42,344 nt of DNA, taken from positions 1 to 42,344 of IMG/VR virus record IMGVR_UViG_3300027728_000024; one strand, given 5' to 3'. A program made the translations under genes and the position numbers. Below the pieces are notes generated by a model. That model was not told the DNA's origin. It saw nothing but the letters and a program-made list of their open reading frames with translations, and searched no databases. The DNA is from a virus. Position 1 is the first letter of the stretch; every line of letters starts with the position of its first letter. Shown here in pieces: positions 33,410 through 41,464 of the stretch.

Positions 33410-33466
33410 AACGAATGGGGGTCGGTTTGCTCAGGGGCAGGTGTCAACCCTGCCCCCCCGTAGGGG
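33410..33466 (-). promoter_or_regulatory. Decayed type A cassette of array gene 1
   Basis: The stem GGGGCAGG/CCTGCCCC with TTGACA in the loop (plus coordinates 33442-33447) is intact, but the position 17 nt downstream reads CGACCC instead of TATAAT/TAAGAT. The AAGGAAC site is also missing. This looks like a degenerate copy. Confidence 0.65.
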
Positions 33467-33634
33467 TCACCAGAGGAAATCTTCTATCGCTTGCCTACGC
33501 TTGGCACGGGTTGCCAGTTCCTTACAGATTGCCCGCTCCTCTTTAGGGGTGGGGTTGCCTACCCATAACCACTCCTCCAATTCAAAGGTGGTCAACTCTG
33601 GGAACTTGGTGGCGATGGTGAAGGTTGCGGTCAT
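33467..33634 (-). CDS. Array gene 2, small unknown protein (55 aa)
   Basis: A 55-aa ORF from ATG at 33634: MTATFTIATKFPELTTFELE, EWLWVGNPTPKEERAICKEL, ending RQAIEDFLW. It is helical, with a mixed-charge C-terminus. It is preceded by a complete strong cassette and AAAGGAAC ribosome binding site. Family unknown. Confidence 0.75.
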   Translation of the reverse strand: MTATFTIATKFPELTTFELEEWLWVGNPTPKEERAICKELATRAKRRQAIEDFLW

Positions 33635-33712
33635 TGGTTGGGTTCCTTTGGTACTCTTAAATTATAAGGGGTAAAGGGGCAGGTGTCAACCCTGCCCCCA
33701 TAGGGTCGGGGA
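33635..33712 (-). promoter_or_regulatory. Type A cassette of array gene 2 (strong promoter)
   Basis: Reference copy. Minus strand: TTGACA (33684-33689), 17-nt spacer, TATAAT (33661-33666), then a leader with AAAGGAACC before ATG. The 8-bp stem is 33676-33683 with 33691-33698 and its 7-nt loop is GTTGACA, so the whole -35 lies in the loop. Confidence 0.88.
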
Positions 33713-33904
33713 TTAGTACCCCATCCAGGTCAGGAACTCCCCAGCATCAACCCCACCGAATGCAGCGGTGACCCCATACTCCGTCCTGAAATCATCCCAG
33801 AGACCGTGCTCTTTTGCTGCTTGGCAGGCAGTGCTCCAACGGATCTGTCCATTGTCATCGGTGCAATTGGCGATGATCTCAGGGAAAATGGAAAACGTTT
33901 TCAT
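33713..33904 (-). CDS. Array gene 3, small unknown protein (63 aa)
   Basis: A 63-aa protein: MKTFSIFPEIIANCTDDNGQ, IRWSTACQAAKEHGLWDDFR, ending DAGEFLTWMGY. It has amphipathic helices and an aromatic C-terminus. I do not recognise a family. It has a full cassette and ribosome binding site upstream. Confidence 0.75.
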   Translation of the reverse strand: MKTFSIFPEIIANCTDDNGQIRWSTACQAAKEHGLWDDFRTEYGVTAAFGGVDAGEFLTWMGY

Positions 33905-33977
33905 TGGTTGGGTTCCTTTGGTACTCTTAAATCTTAGTCGGTCAAGGGGCAGGTGTCAACCCTGCCCGTCTTGCAGA
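33905..33977 (-). promoter_or_regulatory. Type A cassette of array gene 3 (TAAGAT variant)
   Basis: TTGACA (33954-33959), exactly 17 nt, then TAAGAT (33931-33936). The same loop-borne -35 on the GGGCAGG stem, with the second -10 haplotype (ACCGACTAAGAT). AAAGGAACC precedes ATG. Confidence 0.85.
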
Positions 33978-34226
33978 TTACCACTCTGGTGAATATCGAT
34001 GATCAGGCACCCCCCTAAAGGTCGGATGCCACCCGCTGATCGGGCAGGGTTTCACCTCATCAGCATGGACCTCAGCACACTGGGCGGCGATGATGTAGGC
34101 AGGAACTCCCCAGTGAATAAACATAGAGGGGCGGGCAGCGCCATTCTTAAGTTGATCCGACTGCCACAACCACTTCAGTTCTCTGGTGGCAAGGTCTGAA
34201 CAGGGTGAGATTGGCAGGTTGGTCAT
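33978..34226 (-). CDS. Array gene 4, small unknown protein (82 aa)
   Basis: An 82-aa protein, MTNLPISPCSDLATRELKWL start, then a Trp/Cys/His-containing middle (MFIHWGVPAYIIAAQCAEVH) and a Pro-rich end (GWHPTFRGVPDHRYSPEW). The spacing of Cys and His could bind a metal, but no standard finger is evident. Upstream cassette with AAAGGAACC. Confidence 0.7.
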   Translation of the reverse strand: MTNLPISPCSDLATRELKWLWQSDQLKNGAARPSMFIHWGVPAYIIAAQCAEVHADEVKPCPISGWHPTFRGVPDHRYSPEW

Positions 34227-34285
34227 TAGGTCGGTTCCTTTGGTTGGTTGCTTATGAATTATAGCATGGAAGGGGGGCGAACCCC
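34227..34285 (-). promoter_or_regulatory. Variant cassette of array gene 4 with TTCG tetraloop
   Basis: TATAAT (34258-34263) and AAAGGAAC are kept, but the stem is replaced by GGGG-TTCG-CCCC (34274-34285), an extra-stable UUCG hairpin in RNA. The -35 position (AGGGGT) is non-consensus. Confidence 0.7.
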
Positions 34286-34465
34286 TCAGATCCCGTTGAG
34301 GAAGTCTGCCAGTGCTTCGTCGTATTCTGCTTTGGTTTGAAAGGTCCGCCCGTGGATAGTGCGGGGGTAGGAGGCATCCAAACCAGCGGCGGCAACGTTG
34401 CGGCAGTCCTGCTCATCGTATCCCATTTTGATCAGGGTGGCAACGTAGGGGTTGAAAGGGGTCAT
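34286..34465 (-). CDS. Array gene 5, small unknown protein (59 aa)
   Basis: A 59-aa ORF: MTPFNPYVATLIKMGYDEQD, CRNVAAAGLDASYPRTIHGR, ending YDEALADFLNGI. The C-terminus TFQTKAEYDEALADFLNG resembles short helical linkers of early phage proteins; no family is recognised. ATG is fixed by the cassette (ribosome binding site AAAGGAACC 6 nt upstream). Confidence 0.75.
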   Translation of the reverse strand: MTPFNPYVATLIKMGYDEQDCRNVAAAGLDASYPRTIHGRTFQTKAEYDEALADFLNGI

Positions 34466-34543
34466 TGGTTGGGTTCCTTTGGTTGGTTTGCTCTTAAATC
34501 TTAGTCGGTCAAGGGGCAGGTGTCAACCCTGCCCCCGTTGGGG
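34466..34543 (-). promoter_or_regulatory. Type A cassette of array gene 5 (strong, TAAGAT variant)
   Basis: TTGACA (34521-34526), 17 nt, TAAGAT (34498-34503). Loop-borne -35, GGGGCAGG stem. The leader has an added CCAACC block between the -10 and AAAGGAACC. Confidence 0.85.
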
Positions 34544-34702
34544 TCATGCCTCAGAATAACCGTCAAACCATTCGCCTGCCTTGCGGGTCTTAGGGTTTTT
34601 GCAGTGTGCCTGTGCCTGCTCAAGGGTCAAACCCCGTTGAACGATCCTATCACGCTTTTCAAGGTGAGGTGCATACATGCGAACGATGTTGAAGAGGGTC
34701 AT
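34544..34702 (-). CDS. Array gene 6, small basic protein (52 aa)
   Basis: A 52-aa ORF: MTLFNIVRMYAPHLEKRDRI, VQRGLTLEQAQAHCKNPKTR, ending KAGEWFDGYSEA. The 'GLTLEQAQAHCKNP.T' segment is a pattern I associate with small cyanophage proteins; function unknown. It is basic and helical. Confidence 0.78.
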   Translation of the reverse strand: MTLFNIVRMYAPHLEKRDRIVQRGLTLEQAQAHCKNPKTRKAGEWFDGYSEA

Positions 34703-34799
34703 GGTTGGGTTCCTTTGGTTGGTTTGCTCTTAAATCTTAGTCGGTGAAGGGGGCATTGCTGCCCCCAGTGTGCCAGTGCCTCAGGTGGGCTAAATGTTA
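34703..34799 (-). promoter_or_regulatory. Type A cassette of array gene 6 (weak -35)
   Basis: TAAGAT at 34734-34739; the hexamer at the -35 place is GCAGCA (34757-34762), again at the loop of the stem GGGGGCA/TGCCCCC. Weaker than the TTGACA copies by consensus match. Confidence 0.75.
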
Positions 34800-35051
34800 C
34801 TAACCTCTCTCAGATAAAAGTGCATATTTCAGATCATTGTTCATTTTTGCTTTATGAACAATAGAACCAAGACTCACCTCTTCAATGTTACCGCTGATGA
34901 TAAGTTGAAGAGATTCAATGAACTCAGGAGTTGAGATAAAAGTGTAAACTTTACCAGGTGAAGTTTGAAAAGCGATGTCAACGCGGTCGCCAATGATTTC
35001 TATCATTGAGATCGCGGAAGATTGAACTTTGGTGAATAGTGAAGCGGTCAT
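34800..35051 (-). CDS. Array gene 7, KTSC-like domain protein (83 aa)
   Basis: An 83-aa protein. After MTASLFTKVQSSAISMIEII it has alternating beta segments (DRVDIAFQTSPGKVYTF) and a helix (TPEFIESLQLIISGN). The layout 'SSAI..I......V.I.F..G..Y.F......F...L' fits a diverged KTSC-type domain and aligns with array gene 15 along the whole length, so the two are paralogues. Its codons are more AT-rich than most array neighbours. Function unknown. Confidence 0.75.
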   Translation of the reverse strand: MTASLFTKVQSSAISMIEIIGDRVDIAFQTSPGKVYTFISTPEFIESLQLIISGNIEEVSLGSIVHKAKMNNDLKYALLSERG

Positions 35052-35124
35052 GGTTGGGTTCCTTTGGTTTGGTACTCTTAAATTATAAGGGGTAAAGGGG
35101 GCATTGCTGCCCCCGGTTGTGCCA
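35052..35124 (-). promoter_or_regulatory. Type A cassette of array gene 7 (weak -35)
   Basis: TATAAT (35082-35087), 17-nt spacer, GCAGCA in the loop position (35105-35110), stem GGGGGCA/TGCCCCC. AAAGGAACC is present before ATG. Confidence 0.78.
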
Positions 35125-35304
35125 CTATTTCAGGTGGGCGAACTGTGCCAAACTGCTAGGGGCAATGTGGGCAGGTGATCCACAGGATTTGTAGAACTTG
35201 ACCATCCGCTCTGCCTCAGGCAGTGTAGCGAACCACTGGGAGCGCCACTCCTCAGTCAACCCTGCGGCAGGGTATGGGGTCTGGTAGCGAACTTCGATTT
35301 TCAT
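35125..35304 (-). CDS. Array gene 8, small unknown protein (59 aa)
   Basis: A 59-aa ORF: MKIEVRYQTPYPAAGLTEEW, RSQWFATLPEAERMVKFYKS, ending APSSLAQFAHLK. It begins as a beta strand followed by a 'W.ATLPEAERMVKFYKSCG' helix, a pattern common in small phage proteins that carry a strand-helix unit. The leader lacks an obvious Shine-Dalgarno. Confidence 0.76.
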   Translation of the reverse strand: MKIEVRYQTPYPAAGLTEEWRSQWFATLPEAERMVKFYKSCGSPAHIAPSSLAQFAHLK

Positions 35305-35380
35305 TGGATTGAGTTGGTTGGTTTGGTACTCTTAAATTATAAGGGGTAAAGGGGGCATCCTGTGCCCCCAGTGTGCCACT
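35305..35380 (-). promoter_or_regulatory. Type A cassette of array gene 8 (no Shine-Dalgarno)
   Basis: TATAAT (35336-35341), 17 nt, loop hexamer CACAGG (35359-35364), stem GGGGGCA/TGCCCCC. The leader is CCAAACCAACCAACTCAATC with no AGGA. Confidence 0.75.
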
Positions 35381-35620
35381 TTACAGATCGGTCAACATCT
35401 TGTCTAATGCAGCGGTGTCGATGGCAGGGTCCATCCAACGGGCACCGTCTGGGGTCATCTGACCGAAACCAGATTCAAGGTATGGAATGAGTGAATCATA
35501 ATGAGTGAATTGGCGGGCGACCTTATAAAGTGCCTCGTCATTCTGCAACCATAGTGATACATTCCAGGTTTCCCAGTTTGCCCATTCGTTGAAGGTTTCG
35601 GTTTGAGTTGAGCAGGTCAT
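35381..35620 (-). CDS. Array gene 9, NWETWNV-motif small protein (79 aa)
   Basis: A 79-aa protein. The segment NEWANWETWNVSLWLQNDEA (residues 11-30) is a recurring signature of small phage and plasmid proteins of unknown function. The C-terminus is helical (DPAIDTAALDKMLTDL). The promoter is strong (TTGACA/TATAAT) but the leader has no Shine-Dalgarno. Confidence 0.8.
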   Translation of the reverse strand: MTCSTQTETFNEWANWETWNVSLWLQNDEALYKVARQFTHYDSLIPYLESGFGQMTPDGARWMDPAIDTAALDKMLTDL

Positions 35621-35697
35621 TGGTTTGAGTTGGTTGGTTTGGTACTCTTAAATTATAAGGGGTAAAGGGGCAGGTGTCAACCCTGCCCCCCATCAAA
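35621..35697 (-). promoter_or_regulatory. Type A cassette of array gene 9 (consensus promoter, no Shine-Dalgarno)
   Basis: TTGACA (35675-35680), 17 nt, TATAAT (35652-35657): a perfect sigma70 consensus with the -35 in the hairpin loop. The leader is CA-rich (CCAACCAACTCAAACC). Confidence 0.87.
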
Positions 35698-35868
35698 TTA
35701 TCTGGGCAGCGGGGGGCAGTTAATTGCATTGTTGCTACGGTGACAGATTTCTGCGATCTCTGCCTCAAGCATGGCATCGACAGACCTGGCAACCCAGACA
35801 GCGCCGACAATGCTAACCATTGAAAAGCATAGGATCAAGATTCCGGTTTGAAAGTTGCGTTCTGACAT
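35698..35868 (-). CDS. Array gene 10, small single-pass membrane protein (56 aa)
   Basis: A 56-aa ORF: MSERNFQTGILILCFSMVSI then VGAVWVARSVDAMLEAEIAE. Residues of about 9-26 form one hydrophobic membrane segment, followed by a short soluble tail with two Cys (EICHRSNNAINCPPLPR). It could be an inner-membrane early protein (for example affecting transport or superinfection); that is inference. Confidence 0.75.
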   Translation of the reverse strand: MSERNFQTGILILCFSMVSIVGAVWVARSVDAMLEAEIAEICHRSNNAINCPPLPR

Positions 35869-35942
35869 TGGTTTGAGTTGGTTGGTTTGCTCTTAAATCT
35901 TAGTCGGTGAAGGGGCAGGTGTCAACCCTGCCCCCGTAGGGG
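35869..35942 (-). promoter_or_regulatory. Type A cassette of array gene 10
   Basis: TTGACA (35920-35925), 17 nt, TAAGAT (35897-35902), loop-borne -35. SD-less CA-rich leader. Confidence 0.85.
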
Positions 35943-36185
35943 TCAGACTGCAACCCAGTAGGAATTCACACAGTCGGGACGCTTTGCACCGATTTCACTT
36001 TGCTCGACCATAATGATCTCAGCATCGGGGCAGGATGATCTCCACCCCTGACACTTGGCATAGCAGTCTGCCAAACTTTTAGAATATCCAAAGGTGCTTG
36101 TGATCGCACCATTTACCACCTGTGCCACGGCAAAGGGGTAGTCAACGGGGCAGAGAATTGTCTTAAGGGGTTTGGGGGTGGTCAT
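35943..36185 (-). CDS. Array gene 11, Cys-containing small protein (80 aa)
   Basis: An 80-aa protein: MTTPKPLKTILCPVDYPFAV start, CYAKCQGWRSSCPDAEIIMV in the middle. Five Cys (one in LCPVD, two in CYAKC, one in SSCPD, one in PDCVN) could bind a metal or form disulfides. Family not recognised. It has AAAGGAACC before ATG. Confidence 0.74.
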   Translation of the reverse strand: MTTPKPLKTILCPVDYPFAVAQVVNGAITSTFGYSKSLADCYAKCQGWRSSCPDAEIIMVEQSEIGAKRPDCVNSYWVAV

Positions 36186-36232
36186 TGGTTGGGTTCCTTT
36201 GGTACTCTTAAATTATAAGGGGTCAGCGGAGC
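36186..36232 (-). promoter_or_regulatory. Short cassette of array gene 11 without GC stem
   Basis: TATAAT at 36212-36217 and AAAGGAACC are present, but the usual GC stem is absent. The -35 place (TGCCTA) falls in the 3' end of gene 12, whose TAG stop is part of it. Confidence 0.65.
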
Positions 36233-36406
36233 CTAGGCATCGCTGTCTGTGCCAGTCTGGCAACCGTCCTGATTGGCATAGTATTGTGCCCGATCATATG
36301 CTCTCATCTCATCGGCATCCTGCAGATCCATGTCCTGCTGAATCCAGCGGCGGTGCAGTGCAAGGGGTGACGCAGTCTTGGCACGGTAGGAGCGGGAAAT
36401 TGGCAT
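36233..36406 (-). CDS. Array gene 12, small unknown protein (57 aa)
   Basis: A 57-aa ORF: MPISRSYRAKTASPLALHRR, WIQQDMDLQDADEMRAYDRA, ending GCQTGTDSDA. It has a basic N-terminus and an acidic, Asp-rich C-terminus. No family is recognised. The leader lacks a Shine-Dalgarno. Confidence 0.72.
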   Translation of the reverse strand: MPISRSYRAKTASPLALHRRWIQQDMDLQDADEMRAYDRAQYYANQDGCQTGTDSDA

Positions 36407-36477
36407 GGTCTCGGTTGGTTGGTTTGGTCTTAAATTATAAGGGGTAAAGGGGGCATCCTGTGCCCCCAGTGTGCCAC
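36407..36477 (-). promoter_or_regulatory. Type A cassette of array gene 12
   Basis: TATAAT (36434-36439), 17 nt, loop hexamer CACAGG (36457-36462), stem GGGGGCA/TGCCCCC; SD-less leader. Confidence 0.75.
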
Positions 36478-36672
36478 TTAATCAATTGGCATACTCAAAG
36501 GTTCGGTGATCCAAATAGCACGGTCAGTTCCTACGGAAAACTGATTATCCCAGATAAAGTGACAAGATTCTTGCCGAGTCCAGTGAAACTTTTTAACGAA
36601 AAAGTCTACTGCTTCTGTCATACAAACAAACCGGTGAGTTTGTCTCATCTGAGCGGATTGAGTTTGTGTCAT
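36478..36672 (-). CDS. Array gene 13, small unknown protein (64 aa)
   Basis: A 64-aa protein: MTQTQSAQMRQTHRFVCMTE, then AVDFFVKKFHWTRQESCHFI and an aromatic C-terminal half ending PLSMPID. A compact alpha/beta fold is likely; family unknown. ATG is chosen from the cassette, though the leader (CCAACCAACCAAAA) has no Shine-Dalgarno. Confidence 0.75.
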   Translation of the reverse strand: MTQTQSAQMRQTHRFVCMTEAVDFFVKKFHWTRQESCHFIWDNQFSVGTDRAIWITEPLSMPID

Positions 36673-36752
36673 TTTTGGTTGGTTGGTTGGTTTGGTACTC
36701 TTAAATTATAAGGGGTGAAGGGGGCATCCTGTGCCCCCAGTGTGCCAGTGCC
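36673..36752 (-). promoter_or_regulatory. Type A cassette of array gene 13
   Basis: TATAAT (36705-36710), 17 nt, loop hexamer CACAGG (36728-36733). Leader with CCAACC repeats. Confidence 0.75.
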
Positions 36753-36926
36753 TCAGGTGGAACGTCCGTCGGTATATTCTCCGATAATTGTGCCATTGAC
36801 ACGCTCATAAACGCAGGCATAACCATAGTCCTCTGAGAGTGAAAAGCACAGGTCCCATGCTCGGTCCTCATCGGTAGTAGTGTTCTCCCAGGGGGCAGAG
36901 GGGCAGCGAACATCGAGTCTTTGCAT
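36753..36926 (-). CDS. Array gene 14, small acidic protein (57 aa)
   Basis: A 57-aa ORF: MQRLDVRCPSAPWENTTTDE, DRAWDLCFSLSEDYGYACVY, ending IGEYTDGRST. 'EDYGYACVYERVNGTIIGEY' looks like a beta hairpin. Open frames of 70 and 74 aa in other phases here are shadows, because the cassette and AAAGGAACC point to this ATG. Family unknown. Confidence 0.75.
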   Translation of the reverse strand: MQRLDVRCPSAPWENTTTDEDRAWDLCFSLSEDYGYACVYERVNGTIIGEYTDGRST

Positions 36927-37051
36927 TGGTTGGGTTCCTTTGGTTTGGTACTCTTAAATTATAAGGGGTCAGGTGGCAGGTTGAGAGGGGCAGTGTGCCA
37001 CCTCCCGAACTGTCACTTGATAAGGGGGGCATTGCTGCCCCCCGTGGTAGA
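36927..37051 (-). promoter_or_regulatory. Double cassette of array gene 14 (empty-cassette footprint)
   Basis: Two stem-loops lie in one 125-nt gap. Next to gene 15 is GGGGGGCA/TGCCCCCC (37024-37043), followed on the minus strand by a truncated TTATCAAG. Next to gene 14 is GGTGGCA/TGCCACC (36972-37002) with TATAAT at 36958-36963. Between them is a TGACAGTTCGGGAGGTGGCA stretch like the 3' end of array gene 1. Confidence 0.7.
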
Positions 37052-37270
37052 TCAGGCAATGGTTGCCTTGAGTGCCTCGCCACGGATGGCAAGGTTGATG
37101 AACTTACCCACTGAATCTTCGTTATTAATCACCAGTTGGAGATCGGTAACAAAATTAGCAGGATCTGCAACGTCATAGGTGTAATCGCGACCACCGTTGA
37201 AGGTGACAACAACTTGACCATCTTGAACATCTGAGATGTTGTCGATTGCGGAAGATTCGAATTTGAACAT
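37052..37270 (-). CDS. Array gene 15, KTSC-like domain protein (72 aa)
   Basis: A 72-aa protein from ATG at 37270 (MFKFESSAIDNISDVQDGQV); an upstream GTG would include the leader and is rejected. The sequence 'F.SSAI..I.....VVVTFNGGRDYTYDV.....F...LQ....S.GKFIN.AIRG' fits the KTSC-type pattern of phage and bacterial proteins. It is a paralogue of array gene 7. Function unknown; neighbours give no clue beyond an early role. Its leader differs from all others and lacks a Shine-Dalgarno. Confidence 0.78.
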   Translation of the reverse strand: MFKFESSAIDNISDVQDGQVVVTFNGGRDYTYDVADPANFVTDLQLVINNEDSVGKFINLAIRGEALKATIA

Positions 37271-37389
37271 GATAAGAAAAAAGGATACGGTTTGAGTTGA
37301 AGTTTTTTGAGCGGGATGCTTCACCCCCGCTTGATGAATTAATTATGGCACGGATCGGGGGGCATTGCAACCCCCCTTGTGCCAGTTCC
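37271..37389 (-). promoter_or_regulatory. Divergent cassette of array gene 15
   Basis: Stem GGGGGG/CCCCCC with TTGCAA in its loop (37365-37370), then 17 nt and CATAAT (37342-37347). The same geometry as type A on a different stem and leader. A second hairpin (AGCGGG/CCCGCT) lies in the long leader. Confidence 0.75.
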
Positions 37390-37584
37390 TCAGGCGGCAC
37401 ACAGTGCCGATTCTTGGCATACTTCTCTGGTTTGGATTAATACATAATCCACCCCCAGTTCATTATCTAAATCAACCGCATATTCATTGGCAGTTGAGAA
37501 ACAATCGAACAGGCGTAAAGTATTAAAATCCTGCCCCTCATAATCTCTACCGGCGATCACTGCGAAAACTTTGGTTGATGGCAT
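37390..37584 (-). CDS. Array gene 16, small unknown protein (64 aa)
   Basis: A 64-aa protein from ATG at 37584, MPSTKVFAVIAGRDYEGQDF, then LRLFDCFSTANEYAVDLDNE and VDYVLIQTREV. The pattern 'FAVIAGRDYEGQDF.TLRLFDC.STA..Y...L....DYV.I..RE' suggests a small alpha/beta fold and resembles conserved small cyanophage proteins. The frame is open 49 codons further upstream, but that part is cassette DNA. AAAGGAACC before ATG supports this start. Confidence 0.78.
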   Translation of the reverse strand: MPSTKVFAVIAGRDYEGQDFNTLRLFDCFSTANEYAVDLDNELGVDYVLIQTREVCQESALCAA

Positions 37585-37678
37585 TGGTTGGGTTCCTTTG
37601 AGTTGGTTTACTCTTAAATTATAAGGGGTAAAGGGGGGCATTTGAACCCCCCTTGTGCCACCTTGTGAATTGGCACAA
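37585..37678 (-). promoter_or_regulatory. Type A cassette of array gene 16
   Basis: TATAAT (37618-37623), 17 nt, TTCAAA (37641-37646) in the loop of stem GGGGGG/CCCCCC (37633-37652). The preceding gene end has TTGTGCCA/TGGCACAA as an extra inverted repeat. Confidence 0.8.
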
Positions 37679-38017
37679 TCAGGCAAACATACCTGATTCG
37701 AATTCCTTAAATATAAACACCGGGACCCCATTCATGGCACCCACGAACTTACGATAGAACCAATTAAAGTCCTTTTGGTAGACACATTCACCGGCATTTC
37801 CACAGGCGGAAATGATAGCATTCAACCTAGACTTAGTGGTCTTTGATTGATACCCACCGTCAAATAAACGAATGGAGGTCTCATCAACCTCGGCAATCTT
37901 GCTGCCGTGAAGATATACCAAACTGGTATCACCTTCGGTGACAACTTTAGTGTTTCCAGATGTGAAATCACGCATGTCGTGAATTGCGTCGATCATTTGC
38001 TTTTCAATCTTGCGCAT
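37679..38017 (-). CDS. Array gene 17, conserved cyanophage protein (112 aa)
   Basis: A 112-aa protein, the largest in the array. MRKIEKQMIDAIHDMRDFTS, a beta block with VYLHGSKIAEVDETSIRLFD and the segment YQSKTTKSRLNAIISACGNA with a GECVYQKDFNWF end are conserved among T4-type cyanophages. The 'G..IA.V......LFDGG..S.TTKSRLNA' core is distinctive. Function unknown; its broad occurrence suggests a useful early role. Confidence 0.85.
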   Translation of the reverse strand: MRKIEKQMIDAIHDMRDFTSGNTKVVTEGDTSLVYLHGSKIAEVDETSIRLFDGGYQSKTTKSRLNAIISACGNAGECVYQKDFNWFYRKFVGAMNGVPVFIFKEFESGMFA

Positions 38018-38098
38018 GGGGTGGGTTCCTTTGGTACTCTTAAATCTTAGTCGGTGAAGGGGGCATCCTGTGCCCCCAGTGTGCCACTAAGGCAGGTG
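38018..38098 (-). promoter_or_regulatory. Type A cassette of array gene 17
   Basis: TAAGAT (38044-38049), 17 nt, loop hexamer CACAGG (38067-38072), stem GGGGGCA/TGCCCCC; AAAGGAACC before ATG. Confidence 0.77.
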
Positions 38099-38284
38099 TC
38101 ACATCCCCATTGCCTCGCGCAGGTCGTTGTATGCTTCGTCGTAGTAGTCAGCGTCGGAATGCTTGCCAGCGGTACGGCAGTTGCAGGCAAGGCAGATCAG
38201 AGCGGTGCGGATCCTAGACCACTGGGCCTCAGTCATAGTGACGGTGCAGAGATCCATTGGGCGGACGTTGGTGCGGACGGTCAT
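38099..38284 (-). CDS. Array gene 18, small helical protein (61 aa)
   Basis: A 61-aa protein: MTVRTNVRPMDLCTVTMTEA, QWSRIRTALICLACNCRTAG, then KHSDADYYDEAYNDLREAMG. It is helical, with three Cys in CLACNC; metal binding is possible but unproven. Full cassette upstream with AAAGGAACC. Confidence 0.75.
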   Translation of the reverse strand: MTVRTNVRPMDLCTVTMTEAQWSRIRTALICLACNCRTAGKHSDADYYDEAYNDLREAMGM

Positions 38285-38354
38285 TGGTTGGTTCCTTTGG
38301 TACTCTTAAATTATAAGGGGTCAAGAGGGGCATTGGCACCCCCCTTGTGCCACC
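38285..38354 (-). promoter_or_regulatory. Type A cassette of array gene 18
   Basis: TATAAT (38310-38315), 17 nt, TGCCAA (38333-38338) in the loop region of a GGGG..CCCC stem. The end of the preceding gene has TGTGCCA/TGGCACA with its stop codon in the loop. Confidence 0.72.
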
Positions 38355-38528
38355 TTACGGATTGGCACACTTTGAAAAGAATTTGTCAAAGTTGTCTACT
38401 ACAATTTGGCACATCTTATCATTTAATTCCTGATCATCACTATCAATGAGAGTGAGAAGATCCTGCTGAATTTGTTCTCTGGTTTGGAGTAAATATCCTT
38501 CCAGAAGTCTTTGAATTGTGAGTGTCAT
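38355..38528 (-). CDS. Array gene 19, small helical protein (57 aa), operon member
   Basis: A 57-aa ORF: MTLTIQRLLEGYLLQTREQI, QQDLLTLIDSDDQELNDKMC, ending DKFFSKCANP. All-helical; AT-richer than the surrounding cassette genes. It begins 5 nt after the 49-aa gene and is the last member of a four-gene operon. No family recognised. Confidence 0.75.
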   Translation of the reverse strand: MTLTIQRLLEGYLLQTREQIQQDLLTLIDSDDQELNDKMCQIVVDNFDKFFSKCANP

Positions 38529-38533
38529 TTTGT

Positions 38534-38683
38534 TTAATCAATACAGATAAATGAGTAATCAATAAGGTCTTCACCTTCTTCAAGATTCAGACACTCATTG
38601 ATTGCTTCAGGAATAAACTTGCGAGGATGATCATTCTCATCAATCTCAATTTCAAGTCTAATAACCCAAGTTTTAGTAGTCAT
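38534..38683 (-). CDS. Array gene 20, small acidic protein (49 aa), operon member
   Basis: A 49-aa ORF: MTTKTWVIRLEIEIDENDHP, RKFIPEAINECLNLEEGEDL, ending IDYSFICID. A strand-helix-strand layout with an acidic C-terminus. 'WVIRLEIEID....P..FIPEAI...L...ED' recurs in small cyanophage proteins as I remember them. It has no own cassette; it sits 20 nt after the TM-protein gene. Confidence 0.75.
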   Translation of the reverse strand: MTTKTWVIRLEIEIDENDHPRKFIPEAINECLNLEEGEDLIDYSFICID

Positions 38684-38703
38684 TTTGTTGGGAGTTGTGA
38701 GTG

Positions 38704-38829
38704 TCATTTGTTTAGGGGCGATTTGTAGAAGGAACGAAACACTGTAACCAGAATGATCAGGGTCGAAATAACACCTAGAAAACCTAGATAGGTGATAGTG
38801 TCACCAGTGAAGTTGAGTGTGTCGGGCAT
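38704..38829 (-). CDS. Array gene 21, tiny single-pass membrane protein (41 aa), operon member
   Basis: A 41-aa ORF: MPDTLNFTGDTITYLGFLGV then ISTLIILVTVFRSFYKSPLN. Residues of about 12-31 form one membrane helix followed by a basic end, consistent with an N-out/C-in inner-membrane peptide. ATG shares a base with the stop of gene 22 (TAATG). Role unknown. Confidence 0.72.
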   Translation of the reverse strand: MPDTLNFTGDTITYLGFLGVISTLIILVTVFRSFYKSPLNK

Positions 38830-38963
38830 TAGAAATCGAGTTTAGAATTGAGTTTGGATTCAAAAGATTGTTCGAGATCTTCGTCGATCTCGTTGTCAAA
38901 GATCTCTCTGGGAGAGTCTTGAATTTCATCCCAGAGATCGGTGTCGATGGTGTCGAATTCCAT
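38829..38963 (-). CDS. Array gene 22, very acidic small protein (44 aa), first operon gene
   Basis: A 44-aa ORF: MEFDTIDTDLWDEIQDSPRE, IFDNEIDEDLEQSFESKLNS, ending KLDF. About one third of residues are Asp/Glu, suggesting a DNA mimic or a binding peptide that targets a basic protein; that is inference. The leader carries TATAAT (38990-38995) and a GGAGG-free CACACACCTCC stretch. It heads the operon of genes 22-19. Confidence 0.72.
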   Translation of the reverse strand: MEFDTIDTDLWDEIQDSPREIFDNEIDEDLEQSFESKLNSKLDF

Positions 38964-39018
38964 TGGAGGTGTGTGTGGTTTACTCTTAAATTATAGGGGC
39001 ATTGGCGGCGATTGTGGA
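38964..39018 (-). promoter_or_regulatory. Promoter of the four-gene operon, embedded in gene 23
   Basis: TATAAT (38990-38995) with TCCACA 17 nt upstream (39013-39018). Both -35 and part of the -10 lie in the last codons of gene 23, whose TAA stop follows the TATAAT core. No GC stem is present: a cassette remnant reduced to a promoter. Confidence 0.65.
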
Positions 39019-39177
39019 GGGGTCTTGTGCCACTTTCTCAACTGCCACCACCTTACCAGTTTGCCGGTAGAAATTTTCCGCGAGTTCAACTGCCTCCTCA
39101 TAGGTGTCTGCGAAGTGGTAGAAGAAATCTTTAGACTCATAAGGTGAGAAAGTTGAAACGATGAATGGTTTTGACAT
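38986..39177 (-). CDS. Array gene 23, small unknown protein (63 aa)
   Basis: A 63-aa protein: MSKPFIVSTFSPYESKDFFY, HFADTYEEAVELAENFYRQT, then GKVVAVEKVAQDPS. Strand-helix-strand layout with 'F.TYEEAVELAENFY..TGKVV.VEKV', a pattern common in small phage proteins. The last residues (NAPII) are encoded by cassette DNA (CCTATAATT). A type B cassette precedes it. Confidence 0.77.
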   Translation of the reverse strand: MSKPFIVSTFSPYESKDFFYHFADTYEEAVELAENFYRQTGKVVAVEKVAQDPSTIAANAPII

Positions 39178-39250
39178 TGGTTTGGGGTGGTGATTGATTA
39201 CTTGTTAAGTATGGCACCCCGTAGGGGTCTTTGGGGTGCCAGTGTGGCAG
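39178..39250 (-). promoter_or_regulatory. Type B cassette, copy 1 (array gene 23)
   Basis: Stem GGCACCCC/GGGGTGCC followed directly by CATACTTAACAAGTAATC, in which TACTT/AAGTA are inverted around AAC. Leader CAATCACCACCCCAAACC, no Shine-Dalgarno. The core repeat is 39189-39240. The -10 candidate is CATACT; the -35 place is non-consensus. Confidence 0.7.
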
Positions 39251-39427
39251 TTAGGCAACTGTCATACATGCTCTCCCAGTTTGCTCTACTTCGTGCTGGA
39301 TCATATCCAGGGCCCATTTCAGACCTTCCACGGTTTCCCCACAGGTCGCCAAATCGGTTCTGGTGACCCGAATGATCATTTCGATTACTTCCAGAGCAGC
39401 GAAATCAGATCGGTTGATGGTTTCCAT
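39251..39427 (-). CDS. Array gene 24, small helical protein (58 aa)
   Basis: A 58-aa ORF: METINRSDFAALEVIEMIIR, VTRTDLATCGETVEGLKWAL, ending RACMTVA. All-helical; unknown family. The C-terminal TVA and the stop lie in the repeat CAGTTGCCTAACTG that also ends gene 25 and the 88-aa gene. Type B cassette upstream. Confidence 0.75.
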   Translation of the reverse strand: METINRSDFAALEVIEMIIRVTRTDLATCGETVEGLKWALDMIQHEVEQTGRACMTVA

Positions 39428-39497
39428 TTGGTTGGTGTGATTGATTACTTGTTAAGTATGGCACCCCTAAAGGGTCTTTGGGGTGCCAGTGTGGCAG
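39428..39497 (-). promoter_or_regulatory. Type B cassette, copy 2 (array gene 24)
   Basis: Core repeat 39438-39487, same stem and CATACTTAACAAGTAATC element as copy 1, with CCTTTA in the loop. Confidence 0.7.
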
Positions 39498-39698
39498 TTA
39501 GGCAACTGGCACAGTCTTCAACATAACATTACTCATTTTGGGTAGTGAGACTTCAGTACCCTCAGGAACTGATTTTAGCAGTCGATTGAGTAATCTTGTT
39601 CTGTTAGAGTTCTTTGATAGATCTAACTCAGTGTGAATGGGAACTAGTTCTGAAACTTTATTCTCATAAGAGAATTTAACGTAAATGGTTTGTGTCAT
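39498..39698 (-). CDS. Array gene 25, small unknown protein (66 aa)
   Basis: A 66-aa protein: MTQTIYVKFSYENKVSELVP, IHTELDLSKNSNRTRLLNRL, ending MLKTVPVA. Mixed strand/helix; no known family. The C-terminal TVPVA is shared exactly with the 88-aa protein at 40837, because both stops lie in the same repeat. Type B cassette upstream. Confidence 0.75.
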   Translation of the reverse strand: MTQTIYVKFSYENKVSELVPIHTELDLSKNSNRTRLLNRLLKSVPEGTEVSLPKMSNVMLKTVPVA

Positions 39699-39761
39699 TT
39701 GGTTGGTGTGGTGATTGATTACTTGTTAAGTATGGCACCCCTCAGGGGTCTTTGGGGTGCC
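39699..39761 (-). promoter_or_regulatory. Type B cassette, copy 3 (array gene 25)
   Basis: Core repeat 39712-39761. No gene abuts it on the upstream side; between it and the terminator at 39857 I see no ORF, only a gene-end-like TGGCACACTGG. Confidence 0.7.
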
Positions 39762-39856
39762 AGTGTGCCACTTTTAGAACTGTCCACTGCTAGGGTTTTA
39801 TGAGTCGGGTCCGTGTTATAATGAAGCTAGAACCTATTTTTGATGAGGATTAAGAC

Positions 39857-39885
39857 AAAAAAAAGGAAGGGCACCACCCCTTCCC
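39857..39885 (-). terminator. Rho-independent terminator
   Basis: On the minus strand a perfect 7-bp stem GGAAGGG/CCCTTCC (39878-39884 with 39865-39871) is followed by eight T (39857-39864). It is the only canonical intrinsic terminator with a U-tract that I find here; it ends the transcript of the 40-aa basic protein gene. Confidence 0.9.
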
Positions 39886-39984
39886 TGATTATCCAACCCA
39901 CCATTAAGTTTATGATCTTATAGTATCACCACAGGAGTCACTTTTGTGTTGAAAAGTAGAGGCAAACTCATTCCTCTTTGAGTA

Positions 39985-40107
39985 TTATTTTCTGTGTTTT
40001 GCAAGTAGACACTTGAGTGCCTGTTTTCTTGCCTTGAGCCTACCCTTACAGGTGCCTCTGGTTTGTTTGCTTTTGCCTGAATTGTGTTGCCAGTTGGGTG
40101 TTTTCAT
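39985..40107 (-). CDS. Tiny basic protein (40 aa)
   Basis: A 40-aa ORF: MKTPNWQHNSGKSKQTRGTC then KGRLKARKQALKCLLAKHRK. Very basic (about a third Lys/Arg), helical at the C-terminus, probably nucleic-acid-binding. It has a consensus-quality promoter (TTGACA, 17, TATATT) and its own terminator 100 nt beyond the stop, so it forms a single-gene transcript. No Shine-Dalgarno (AAAACCACCACCGCC leader). Confidence 0.75.
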   Translation of the reverse strand: MKTPNWQHNSGKSKQTRGTCKGRLKARKQALKCLLAKHRK

Positions 40108-40186
40108 GGCGGTGGTGGTTTTGATTACCTATGTAATATAGCAGAGATCTCGATGCTTGTCAAGTGTGTGTGCCAGTTCGAGATCT
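40108..40186 (-). promoter_or_regulatory. Type C cassette, copy 1 (40-aa gene)
   Basis: TTGACA (40158-40163), 17 nt, TATATT (40135-40140), with ATTAC/GTAAT inverted around ATAG just after the -10. The -35 lies in the loop of a 9-bp inverted repeat agatctcga/tcgagatct (40145-40153 with 40178-40186). Confidence 0.82.
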
Positions 40187-40298
40187 GTCATAGTGTATGA
40201 TGCATATACTCGACGAGATGTATGTATGATGCATGATGCGCATCTCGACGAGATGTATATACTCGTCGAGAATGTATGTGCGCATCTAGTCTAGATCT
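40145..40298. repeat. Palindrome-rich gene-free island
   Basis: About 150 bp with stacked palindromes: AGATCT three times (40145, 40181, 40293), CTCGACGAG (40209-40217), CATCTCGACGAGATG (40241-40255), CTCGTCGAG (40262-40270), GATGCGCATC (40235-40244) and TCTAGTCTAGA (40285-40295). No ORF. It lies between the ArdA-like gene and the 40-aa gene. Confidence 0.75.
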
Positions 40299-40768
40299 TA
40301 CCAGTCCCTTGAGAATACATAACCATTCACAAACTCATATTCATAAGACAACTGATCCCAGGTTGCTTGCCAATCAATTACCACACACCAAGGGAACTCT
40401 GCTGTATCACAACGTTCAGTTACATATTCTTCTGCAAAATCTTTCTCAGATTCATAACAACCTATATAGGCATCTTCGAATCCGTGAAGATCACTTTCTT
40501 CCCAGATAGTTAGGAATGCTTCGATGGCATCTTCGTGATGATTTTCACAAAGTTTCTCATAGAGTTCTTGATACTCTTGAGAAATGTTTGTGGGTTCTGG
40601 TTTGTTTAGAGTTCCATTTGCATCTAACAGTTGAGTATAAAACTCAGTGTAGTGCATCTTGCCATCAGATTCATAACCACATGCCCGAACAATGTCGGAC
40701 GTTTTGATTGGTGGTTCTTGTGACCGCATTTCAGTCACTTTAGTCAAAAGAGCGGTGCCGGTGAGCAT
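40298..40768 (-). CDS. ArdA-like antirestriction protein with cyAbrB-like N-terminal domain
   Basis: A 156-aa protein. Residues 1-52 (MLTGTALLTKVTEMRSQEPP, IKTSDIVRACGYESDGKMHY, TEFYTQLLDANG) resemble the N-terminal 'LTG.ELLAKV.EL...SK.ELVRACGY......FT.FY.ALL.A' module of cyanobacterial AbrB (cyAbrB) proteins. Residues of about 79-156 (AIEAFLTIWEESDLHGFEDA, YIGCYESEKDFAEEYVTERC, VIDWQATWDQL, YVFSRDW) match the C-terminal part of ArdA, a DNA mimic that blocks type I restriction enzymes; the protein is acidic as expected. The N-terminal ArdA portion is missing or replaced. It has its own promoter (TTGCAA-17-TATACT) and an AAGGAAT ribosome binding site. Confidence 0.78.
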   Translation of the reverse strand: MLTGTALLTKVTEMRSQEPPIKTSDIVRACGYESDGKMHYTEFYTQLLDANGTLNKPEPTNISQEYQELYEKLCENHHEDAIEAFLTIWEESDLHGFEDAYIGCYESEKDFAEEYVTERCDTAEFPWCVVIDWQATWDQLSYEYEFVNGYVFSRDW

Positions 40769-40836
40769 GATGAATTCCTTGGGAACGAATGTAGTATAGA
40801 ATGAATTGGGGAGTATTGCAACTCCCCTTGTGGCAG
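40769..40836 (-). promoter_or_regulatory. Promoter/stem-loop of the ArdA-like gene
   Basis: TTGCAA (40816-40821), 17 nt, TATACT (40793-40798). The -35 lies in the loop of GGGGAGT/ACTCCCC (40808-40827). The stem sequence is unrelated to types A-C but the geometry is identical. Confidence 0.8.
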
Positions 40837-41103
40837 TTAGGCAACTGGCACAGTGTCTTCTATAACTTCTGAAATTTCAATTTGGATTTTATCCAAAATC
40901 ATCTCATAGATGTAATCACTATCACCGATGCCAATTAGCACTTCCTGAACTACCCCATCAGGATAAGTTACCTCATTATAATCATCATCTTGAGTGACTA
41001 CATCGTTGCCAGTGAATATAAACGCAGCGACTGGCGCTGCTTCACCTTGTTCTACAATCTTTTGATTGATGGAATCACGCAATTGTGAGAGAGTGTAATA
41101 CAT
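40837..41103 (-). CDS. Small acidic conserved protein (88 aa)
   Basis: An 88-aa protein from ATG at 41103: MYYTLSQLRDSINQKIVEQG, APVAAFIFTGNDVVTQDDDY, then VQEVLIGIGDSDYIYEMILD. An upstream in-frame start would place 16 codons in cassette DNA and is rejected. 'LSQLR..I...I..QGE.APVAAFIFT..DV' with 'GDSDYIYE' is a pattern I associate with small cyanophage proteins; function unknown. The TVPVA end is repeat-encoded. Type B cassette upstream. Confidence 0.78.
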   Translation of the reverse strand: MYYTLSQLRDSINQKIVEQGEAAPVAAFIFTGNDVVTQDDDYNEVTYPDGVVQEVLIGIGDSDYIYEMILDKIQIEISEVIEDTVPVA

Positions 41104-41184
41104 TGTGTTTGGGGAGGGGGGTGATTGATTACTTGTTAAGTATGGCACCACTTAGGGGTCTTTGGGGTGCCAGTGTGCCAGTTC
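41104..41184 (-). promoter_or_regulatory. Type B cassette, copy 4 (88-aa gene)
   Basis: Core repeat 41122-41171. Same CATACTTAACAAGTAATC element; the stem is shortened to GGCACC/GGTGCC by one change in each arm region. A separate copy 1.4 kb from the other three. Confidence 0.7.
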
Positions 41185-41373
41185 CTAGACTGTCAGGAAC
41201 TTGAGTTCCTCCTGAACCCTAAGCATTGCCGAACGACTATATCCCGTGGCATAGGGATAAGATTTTTCGGCATCTTCTGATCTGGACTCTACCCTGTAGC
41301 AGACATTGATTGCATCATCAAGACTCTCAATCAGAGTCTCAAGTGTGGAGACAGGAACTTGAATGGTTTTCAT
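41185..41373 (-). CDS. Small helical protein (62 aa)
   Basis: A 62-aa protein: MKTIQVPVSTLETLIESLDD, AINVCYRVESRSEDAEKSYP, YATGYSRSAMLRVQEELKFL. Helix, loop, helix; the 'PYATGYSRSAMLRVQEEL' part recurs in small phage proteins. Type C cassette upstream. Its stop lies in GACAGTCTAGGAACTG, the same repeat that ends the 134-aa gene. Confidence 0.76.
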   Translation of the reverse strand: MKTIQVPVSTLETLIESLDDAINVCYRVESRSEDAEKSYPYATGYSRSAMLRVQEELKFLTV

Positions 41374-41450
41374 TGGGGTTGAGGTGGTTTTGATTACCTA
41401 GGTAATATAACAGGGCACCAGATCGAAGTCTAGTGCCCCTGTGACAGTTC
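41374..41450 (-). promoter_or_regulatory. Type C cassette, copy 2 (62-aa gene)
   Basis: TATATT (41404-41409) followed by the perfect 14-bp palindrome ATTACCTAGGTAAT; TAGACT is 17 nt upstream (41427-41432) at the loop edge of a 10-bp stem (41413-41422 with 41429-41438). Leader AAAACCACCTCAACCCCA. Confidence 0.75.
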
Positions 41451-41464
41451 CTAGACTGTCACAG
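41439..41464. repeat. 10-bp inverted repeat around a stop codon
   Basis: ctgtgacagt/actgtcacag (41439-41448 with 41455-41464) flank a 6-nt loop holding the TAG stop of the 134-aa gene. No U-tract follows, so it may be a 3'-end stabiliser or recombination site rather than a terminator. Confidence 0.75.

Follow-up and report, generated by a model that had tools for sequence, protein, structure and literature searches.

Why, in the small accessory gene region of one cyanophage, do hairpins and promoter-like elements recur together upstream of one gene after another? The region lies in the virus record IMGVR_UViG_3300027728_000024, whose 42,344 bases, referred to here as the window, include T4-like baseplate genes; the array genes and the flanks of the window match Synechococcus myoviruses. 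Beside the baseplate genes, ~28 small genes are arrayed on the minus strand (33.2 to 41.9 kb), most with their own upstream element, and 16 repeats of a standard unit, defined as a −10 element (TATAAT or TAAGAT) followed by TTAAGA, are found among them. The initial annotation had proposed that the −35 hexamer sits in the loop of a stem-loop, 17 nucleotides (nt) from the −10 element, on stems of unrelated sequence, such that a hairpin ending the upstream mRNA and a promoter for the next gene share the same DNA. The explanation that we favor, with a probability of roughly 0.6, is that the units are cassettes of a T4-like cyanophage in which an early promoter is fused to a stem-loop, that their T-tract has decayed in the window, and that recombination between units has spread them.

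Eight of 27 upstream regions carry TTGACA, TTGCAA, or TTCAAA in a hairpin loop with a −10 element exactly 17 nt farther on. A scan for stems with 6 or more pairs, a TT-starting loop hexamer matching at 4 or more of 6 positions, a spacer of 16 to 18 nt, and a −10 element matching at 4 or more of 6 positions passes seven of the 27; the eighth, upstream of gene 9, fails the G-U filter alone. The same scan found no loop-embedded −35 unit on the opposite strand, and 300 dinucleotide shuffles averaged 0.03 units and never exceeded 1, compared with the 7 to 8 observed, so that the control set by the initial annotation does not reproduce the coincidence. The positions that it gave for the type A units, in which TTGACA occupies the loop and TATAAT or TAAGAT follows, are correct, as are the loop hexamers and −10 elements that it gave for the ArdA-like gene and for array genes 15 and 16, each with a spacer of 17 nt (Table 1). 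The type A units match the sigma-70 consensus at 12/12 and 10/12 positions at 17 nt, and a −35/−10 spacing of 16 to 18 nt is present in eight units and not in those of type B. As for the unrelated stems, several do exist, but five of the eight cases in the window share one stem; as copies of a single cassette (type A), these are not independent events, and the independent stems number about three. Several hairpins in the region lack a −35 element and GC-rich arms are common there, as would be expected if the arrangement were a chance coincidence in GC-rich intergenic DNA, but the shuffles, the viral controls, and the permuted-loop search described below contradict that explanation, which we find hardly credible.

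The exact window cassette is rare in IMG/VR, where just one near-copy contig was found, and relatives were therefore sought by protein similarity and with degenerate patterns. In 1.5 Mb of cyanophage contigs collected by protein similarity, 303 TTGAC sites have a −10 element at exactly 17 nt, compared with about 80 to 180 at other spacers. A hairpin with its loop centered on TTGAC is present at 19 of these 303 sites as against 11 of 2575 sites without a −10 element at 16 to 18 nt (odds ratio, 15.6; p = 3e-12, or 2e-8 when the window and its near copy are left out), and when the test position is slid along the sequence, hairpins are concentrated at the −35 element, with little signal elsewhere. 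The stems involved are unrelated, with examples including CCTGCAACACC.., AACTGAGATGC.., GTGCCCC.., and AGGGGTC... A blind search of viral sequences with the pattern GGGGNNTTGACNNNCCCCTTTT, which does not include a −10 element, matched at least 120 viral contigs. A −10 element lies at exactly 17 nt in 47 of the 63 distinct matches (75%) and in 0 to 9 of 63 at other spacers, and the inner NN/NN stem positions, which the pattern leaves free, are complementary in 38 of 63, compared with 9.5 in shuffles. Permuting the loop to TACTG left this search with 2 matches. The viral composites matched by the original pattern look like complete intrinsic terminators, with their T-tract in the promoter spacer. 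Across 257 Gb of sequence from bacteria and archaea, the original pattern had 48 matches, with a −10 element at 17 nt in 11 of the 47 distinct ones; the element is thus not strictly viral, yet it is far rarer there. Judged from these sequences outside the window, for the most part, selection on the arrangement, as the initial annotation had put it, appears well supported, because hairpins are enriched at the −35 position only where a −10 element follows 17 nt downstream and because the blind search recovers the −10 element at 17 nt.

Among cultured phages, isolates S-CAM3, Sf-CH11, S-RSM4, and S-H34 combine the stem, the T-tract, and a −35 element in the loop; one BLAST query, built by joining two units by hand, served only to supply leads. 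Some metagenomic carriers are not close to cyanophages at the DNA level, which may point to a wider use of the element. Lookalikes in the Straboviridae (Vibrio VH7D and Escherichia NHEP10) and in Pseudomonas PA5oct proved to be ordinary terminators or promoters, with the −35 element outside the hairpin loops. Composites lacking the T-tract numbered 33 distinct cases, many of them frame-shifted T-tract forms, and their inner pairing (6, compared with 2.5 in shuffles, maximum 8) is not clearly above shuffles, so that this set weighs neither way on a T-less class. In other viral contigs, T-less composites with a loop-embedded −35 element (L396 and L403) stand directly upstream of apparent tRNA genes.

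Within the window, the units are mosaics. Hairpins of type A or B are joined to either of two −10 blocks (CCCCTTATAAT or CCGACTAAGAT) and to either of two 5′ untranslated regions (UTRs; GTACC or GCAAACC), and all four combinations are present in both cases. Orthologues of the 112-amino-acid (aa) gene (37679-38017) have other upstream modules in other phages, some of them with TTGACT or TTGCAA in the loop. The mosaic units and the differing orthologue modules together suggest exchange within and between units, and the lone type A hairpin that has TTGACA and no −10 element (Table 1) looks like a unit that lost its −10-bearing stretch. A second inverted repeat, ~GTGCCAGTT-NNNN-AACTGGCAC, or its TGGCACA half, immediately precedes the main hairpin in 11 of 11 standard units that are not of type A and in 0 of 5 that are; it occurs within 34760-41460 of the window, upstream of most non-type-A hairpins, and similar repeats precede orthologous genes in many cyanophages. 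Array genes 34800-35051 and 37052-37321 belong to the same PHROG family (phrog_4357) and have different upstream units.

These patterns could also arise if the units were cassettes that duplicate and recombine and are retained chiefly because they supply homology for gene shuffling, in the manner of the promoter-early stem-loop (PeSL) cassettes of T4-type phages, with their geometry inherited rather than selected unit by unit. Identical type A and B blocks stand before unrelated genes, as that would predict, and the full set of hairpin/−10 and hairpin/UTR combinations and the −10-less unit fit as well. Copying, however, cannot account for the recurrence of the geometry on unrelated stems in other phages, and we consider it unlikely that shuffling is the main reason for which the units are kept.

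The terminator half of the proposed cassettes is less uniform. The hairpins of types A, B, and C and of the ArdA-like unit are GC rich, with energies of −12 to −17 kcal/mol, and many relatives, including marine ones, have T4 to T9 after the stem. The window linkers TTTACCCCT, TTCACCGAC, and TTGACCGAC have no T run directly after the stem, and an independent terminator scan of the window did not pick up the type A (TTGACA) hairpins, while it found the T8 terminator at 39886-39857. The suggested role of the hairpin in ending the upstream mRNA is thus plausible for the relatives with T4 to T9 and weak for the window, which, with few T residues in its linkers and its hairpins missed by the scan, resembles a lineage with a weakened terminator half.

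Nor is the −35 element a constant of the array. A −35-like TT-starting hexamer lies at 17 nt in 6 of the 16 standard units (five TTGACA and one TTCAAA). Type B hairpins (loops CACAGGA or GCAGCAA) occupy the same site, 9 nt before the −10 element, with no −35 element, and the standard units at 36217 and 36963 have other stems there; weak 4/6 matches to the −35 element among the remaining units are found at 38315 (GTGCCA, 18 nt) and 38995 (TCCACA). What hardly varies among the window units is the 9-nt distance from the end of the hairpin to the −10 element, and the constant feature in the window is the hairpin plus the −10 element, rather than the −35 element. The initial observation is therefore real, but it was put too strongly for the window: that different sequences keep one geometry is not borne out for the −35 element there, whereas the distance from hairpin to −10 element is nearly constant. 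The 40-aa gene does have TTGACA within 9-bp arms, 17 nt before TATATT, as had been noted, but the arms (40144-40152/40177-40185) enclose 24 nt, a different geometry. A third repeated unit (39200-39240, 39444-39488, 39720-39765, and 41124-41170) consists of a GGCACCCC..GGGGTGCC hairpin abutting or overlapping CATACT and joined to ATACTTAACAAGTAATCAATC; it has no −35 element, and its four copies precede unrelated genes and do not fit the loop-embedded geometry.

Several of these observations weigh against the interpretation of the units as fused promoter/stem-loop cassettes. The −35 element is missing from over half of the standard units, which implies that the hairpin is retained for a reason other than holding one, and the 9-nt linker averages 2.8 T in the window compared with 7.5 in the viral composites; given the weak T-tract and the absent −35 elements, a dual role is not established for every window unit. 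Outside the window, a hairpin is present on only about 6% of the cyanophage TTGAC sites with a −10 element at 17 nt, the blind pattern was biased to G/C stems by construction, and C-first stems are much rarer, with 15 distinct cases, 4 of them with a −10 element at 17 nt, and hence a weak −10 signal.

One way to accommodate the window units would be to regard their hairpins as RNA 3′-end caps or as processing or stability elements, with the −35 element in the loop a relic of a fused terminator/promoter and the promoters acting mainly via the −10 element. The missing T-tract, the retention of hairpins in units without a −35 element, some with loops of stable types (GCAA and UUCG), and the presence of a canonical T8 terminator elsewhere in the same phage all point in this direction. 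In five units, however, TTGACA is perfect and its 17-nt spacing exact, which would be lost in a relic unless the copies were very recent, and we regard this explanation as possible but doubtful.

If the units are fused cassettes, as we favor, each would be a module of ~60 bp placed before one small gene, acting as DNA as a host sigma-70-type promoter and, in the RNA from the upstream gene, as a GC-rich hairpin at its end. Other cyanophages commonly have the complete form, and so do some other phages: the loop provides the −35 element and the 3′ arm plus the T-tract the 17-nt spacer, followed by the −10 element, such that one stretch of ~45 bp holds both a probable intrinsic terminator and a probable promoter. 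The window units would have kept the stems, the −35 element in the loop (in eight units), and the −10 element while the T-tract decayed; those without a −35 element are probably weaker promoters, with hairpins that insulate or cap the upstream RNA. Because the T-tract of the complete form lies inside the spacer, a polymerase coming from upstream would be positioned over the next promoter when it let go of its RNA; geometry and general knowledge also lead one to expect that a polymerase already on that promoter would block an arriving one. By either route, the upstream message would stop at the unit and the next gene would start independently. The sequences themselves show the geometry, its departure from randomness, its recurrence on unrelated stems, and the mosaic makeup of the units; promoter activity, a function in termination or at RNA 3′ ends, and recombination as the cause are inferred from them.

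A more elaborate possibility is that the unit is a polymerase-recycling device, in which a polymerase terminated in the T-tract would rebind sigma and start the next gene on the same DNA, relaying transcription through the short early genes, with bound polymerase blocking read-through, and which would have arisen repeatedly in several phage lineages with different stems; we think this rather improbable. Palindromes centered on the −35 element are typical of repressor sites, and the inverted repeat might accordingly be seen as a DNA operator over the −35 element, bound by a phage or host regulator. The stems, however, vary between units and phages yet remain complementary, and the T-tract, an RNA feature, is present in many relatives, which makes an operator very unlikely.

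The best reading of the sequence comparisons is that the units are a compact variant of the PeSL promoter/terminator cassettes. PeSLs are composites of a promoter and a stem-loop that shuffle genes in T4-type phages; PMC4503421 cites Arbiol 2010 (GBE 2:140) and Comeau 2014 (GBE 6:1611, 'Composite conserved promoter-terminator motifs') for them. A 2015 study of cyanophage S-PM2 judged PeSLs to be too few in that phage to account for its ORFanage. The units described here resemble PeSLs in combining a sigma-70 early promoter with a stem-loop, in being repeated within a variable region ahead of small accessory genes, and in showing signs of module shuffling. They differ in that the few terminators near promoters in stretches of RB49 and nt-1 lie about 10 to 29 nt upstream of the −35 element with no overlap, whereas in the window and its relatives the stem-loop lies over the promoter, the −35 element being the loop and the spacer the 3′ arm plus linker. 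Scanning ~50 kb each of RB49, nt-1, and T4 revealed no good loop-embedded −35 element with a −10 element at 17 nt; there was one match at 16 nt in RB49, one weak match in nt-1, and none in T4. Like intrinsic terminators, the units have a GC-rich stem and a loop of 4 to 8 nt, with a T-tract in many relatives; unlike them, they mostly lack the T-tract in the window, and in the relatives the loop is constrained to TTGAC. Reinitiation by RNA polymerase after termination has been described for separate terminators and promoters, with data obtained in vitro and in Escherichia coli and Bacillus subtilis (PMC6978322 and PMC6978380). The promoter here likewise sits where a terminated polymerase would remain, but terminator and promoter would share the same base pairs. 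Reviews of cyanophage transcription describe sigma-70-type early promoters and separately predicted terminators and do not mention overlap. The literature covered, to which the founding PeSL papers do not belong, contains no description of a −35 element inside a terminator loop, and absence is not established by it.

Table 1. Hairpin and promoter features of the small-gene array (coordinates of the window)
Feature	Position	Strand	Hairpin or arms	−35 element	Spacer (nt)	−10 element	Remarks
Type A unit	33661..33698	-	GGGGCAGG/CCTGCCCC, 33676-33698	TTGACA, 33689-33684, in loop	17	TATAAT, 33666-33661	Upstream of gene 33467-33634
Type A unit	33931..33968	-		TTGACA, 33959-33954	17	TAAGAT, 33936-33931	
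Type A unit	34498..34535	-		TTGACA, 34526-34521	17	TAAGAT, 34503-34498	
Type A unit	35652..35689	-		TTGACA, 35680-35675	17	TATAAT, 35657-35652	
Type A unit	35897..35934	-		TTGACA, 35925-35920	17	TAAGAT, 35902-35897	
Type A hairpin	33434..33456	-		TTGACA		Absent	
Type C unit (array gene 15)	37342..37376	-	GGGGGG-TTGCAATG-CCCCCC	TTGCAA, 37370-37365	17	CATAAT, 37347-37342	
Type C unit (array gene 16)	37618..37652	-	GGGGGG-TTCAAATG-CCCCCC	TTCAAA, 37646-37641	17	TATAAT, 37623-37618	
Type C-like unit	38310..38344	-	Loop TGCCAA	None good at 17 nt; GTGCCA (4/6)	18	TATAAT	
ArdA-like gene unit	40793..40827	-	GGGGAGT/ACTCCCC	TTGCAA, 40821-40816, in loop	17	TATACT, 40798-40793	
Type B2 unit	34734..34766	-	GGGGGCA-GCAA-TGCCCCC	None		TAAGAT	9 nt from hairpin to −10 element
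Type B2 unit	35082..35114	-		None		TATAAT	
Type B1 unit	35336..35369	-	GGGGGCA-CAGGA-TGCCCCC	None		TATAAT	
Type B1 unit	36434..36467	-		None		TATAAT	
Type B1 unit	36705..36738	-		None		TATAAT	
Type B1 unit	38044..38077	-		None		TAAGAT	
Canonical intrinsic terminator	39857..39886	-	GGAAGGG-GTGGT-GCCCTTCC + T8				Model of a full terminator in this phage
40-aa gene promoter	40135..40185	-	AGATCTCGA/TCGAGATCT, 24 nt apart	TTGACA, 40163-40158	17	TATATT, 40140-40135	

An Rfam search of the window gave no match. The ArdA-like label given to the 156-aa protein encoded at 40298-40768 is in line with its match to the antirestriction PHROG family phrog_36653 (E value, 1e-10). Just after the −10 element TATATT of two genes (40115-40140 and 41385-41410) lies a palindrome-like TTACCTAGGTAA / TTACATAGGTAA, possibly an operator, and CTCGACGAGATGTAT motifs recur in both orientations within an AT-rich stretch at 40170-40290.

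Annotation usually treats promoters and terminators as distinct elements; here, one short stretch seems to be held under both constraints in many phages, with different sequences. Early cassettes in metagenomic phages could be recognized by this simple signature in their sequence. The arrangement also supplies a compact stop-and-start part of natural origin and would allow one to ask directly whether polymerase can restart in place right after termination. The fused stop-and-start module looks like a more compact form of one known from T4-like viruses.

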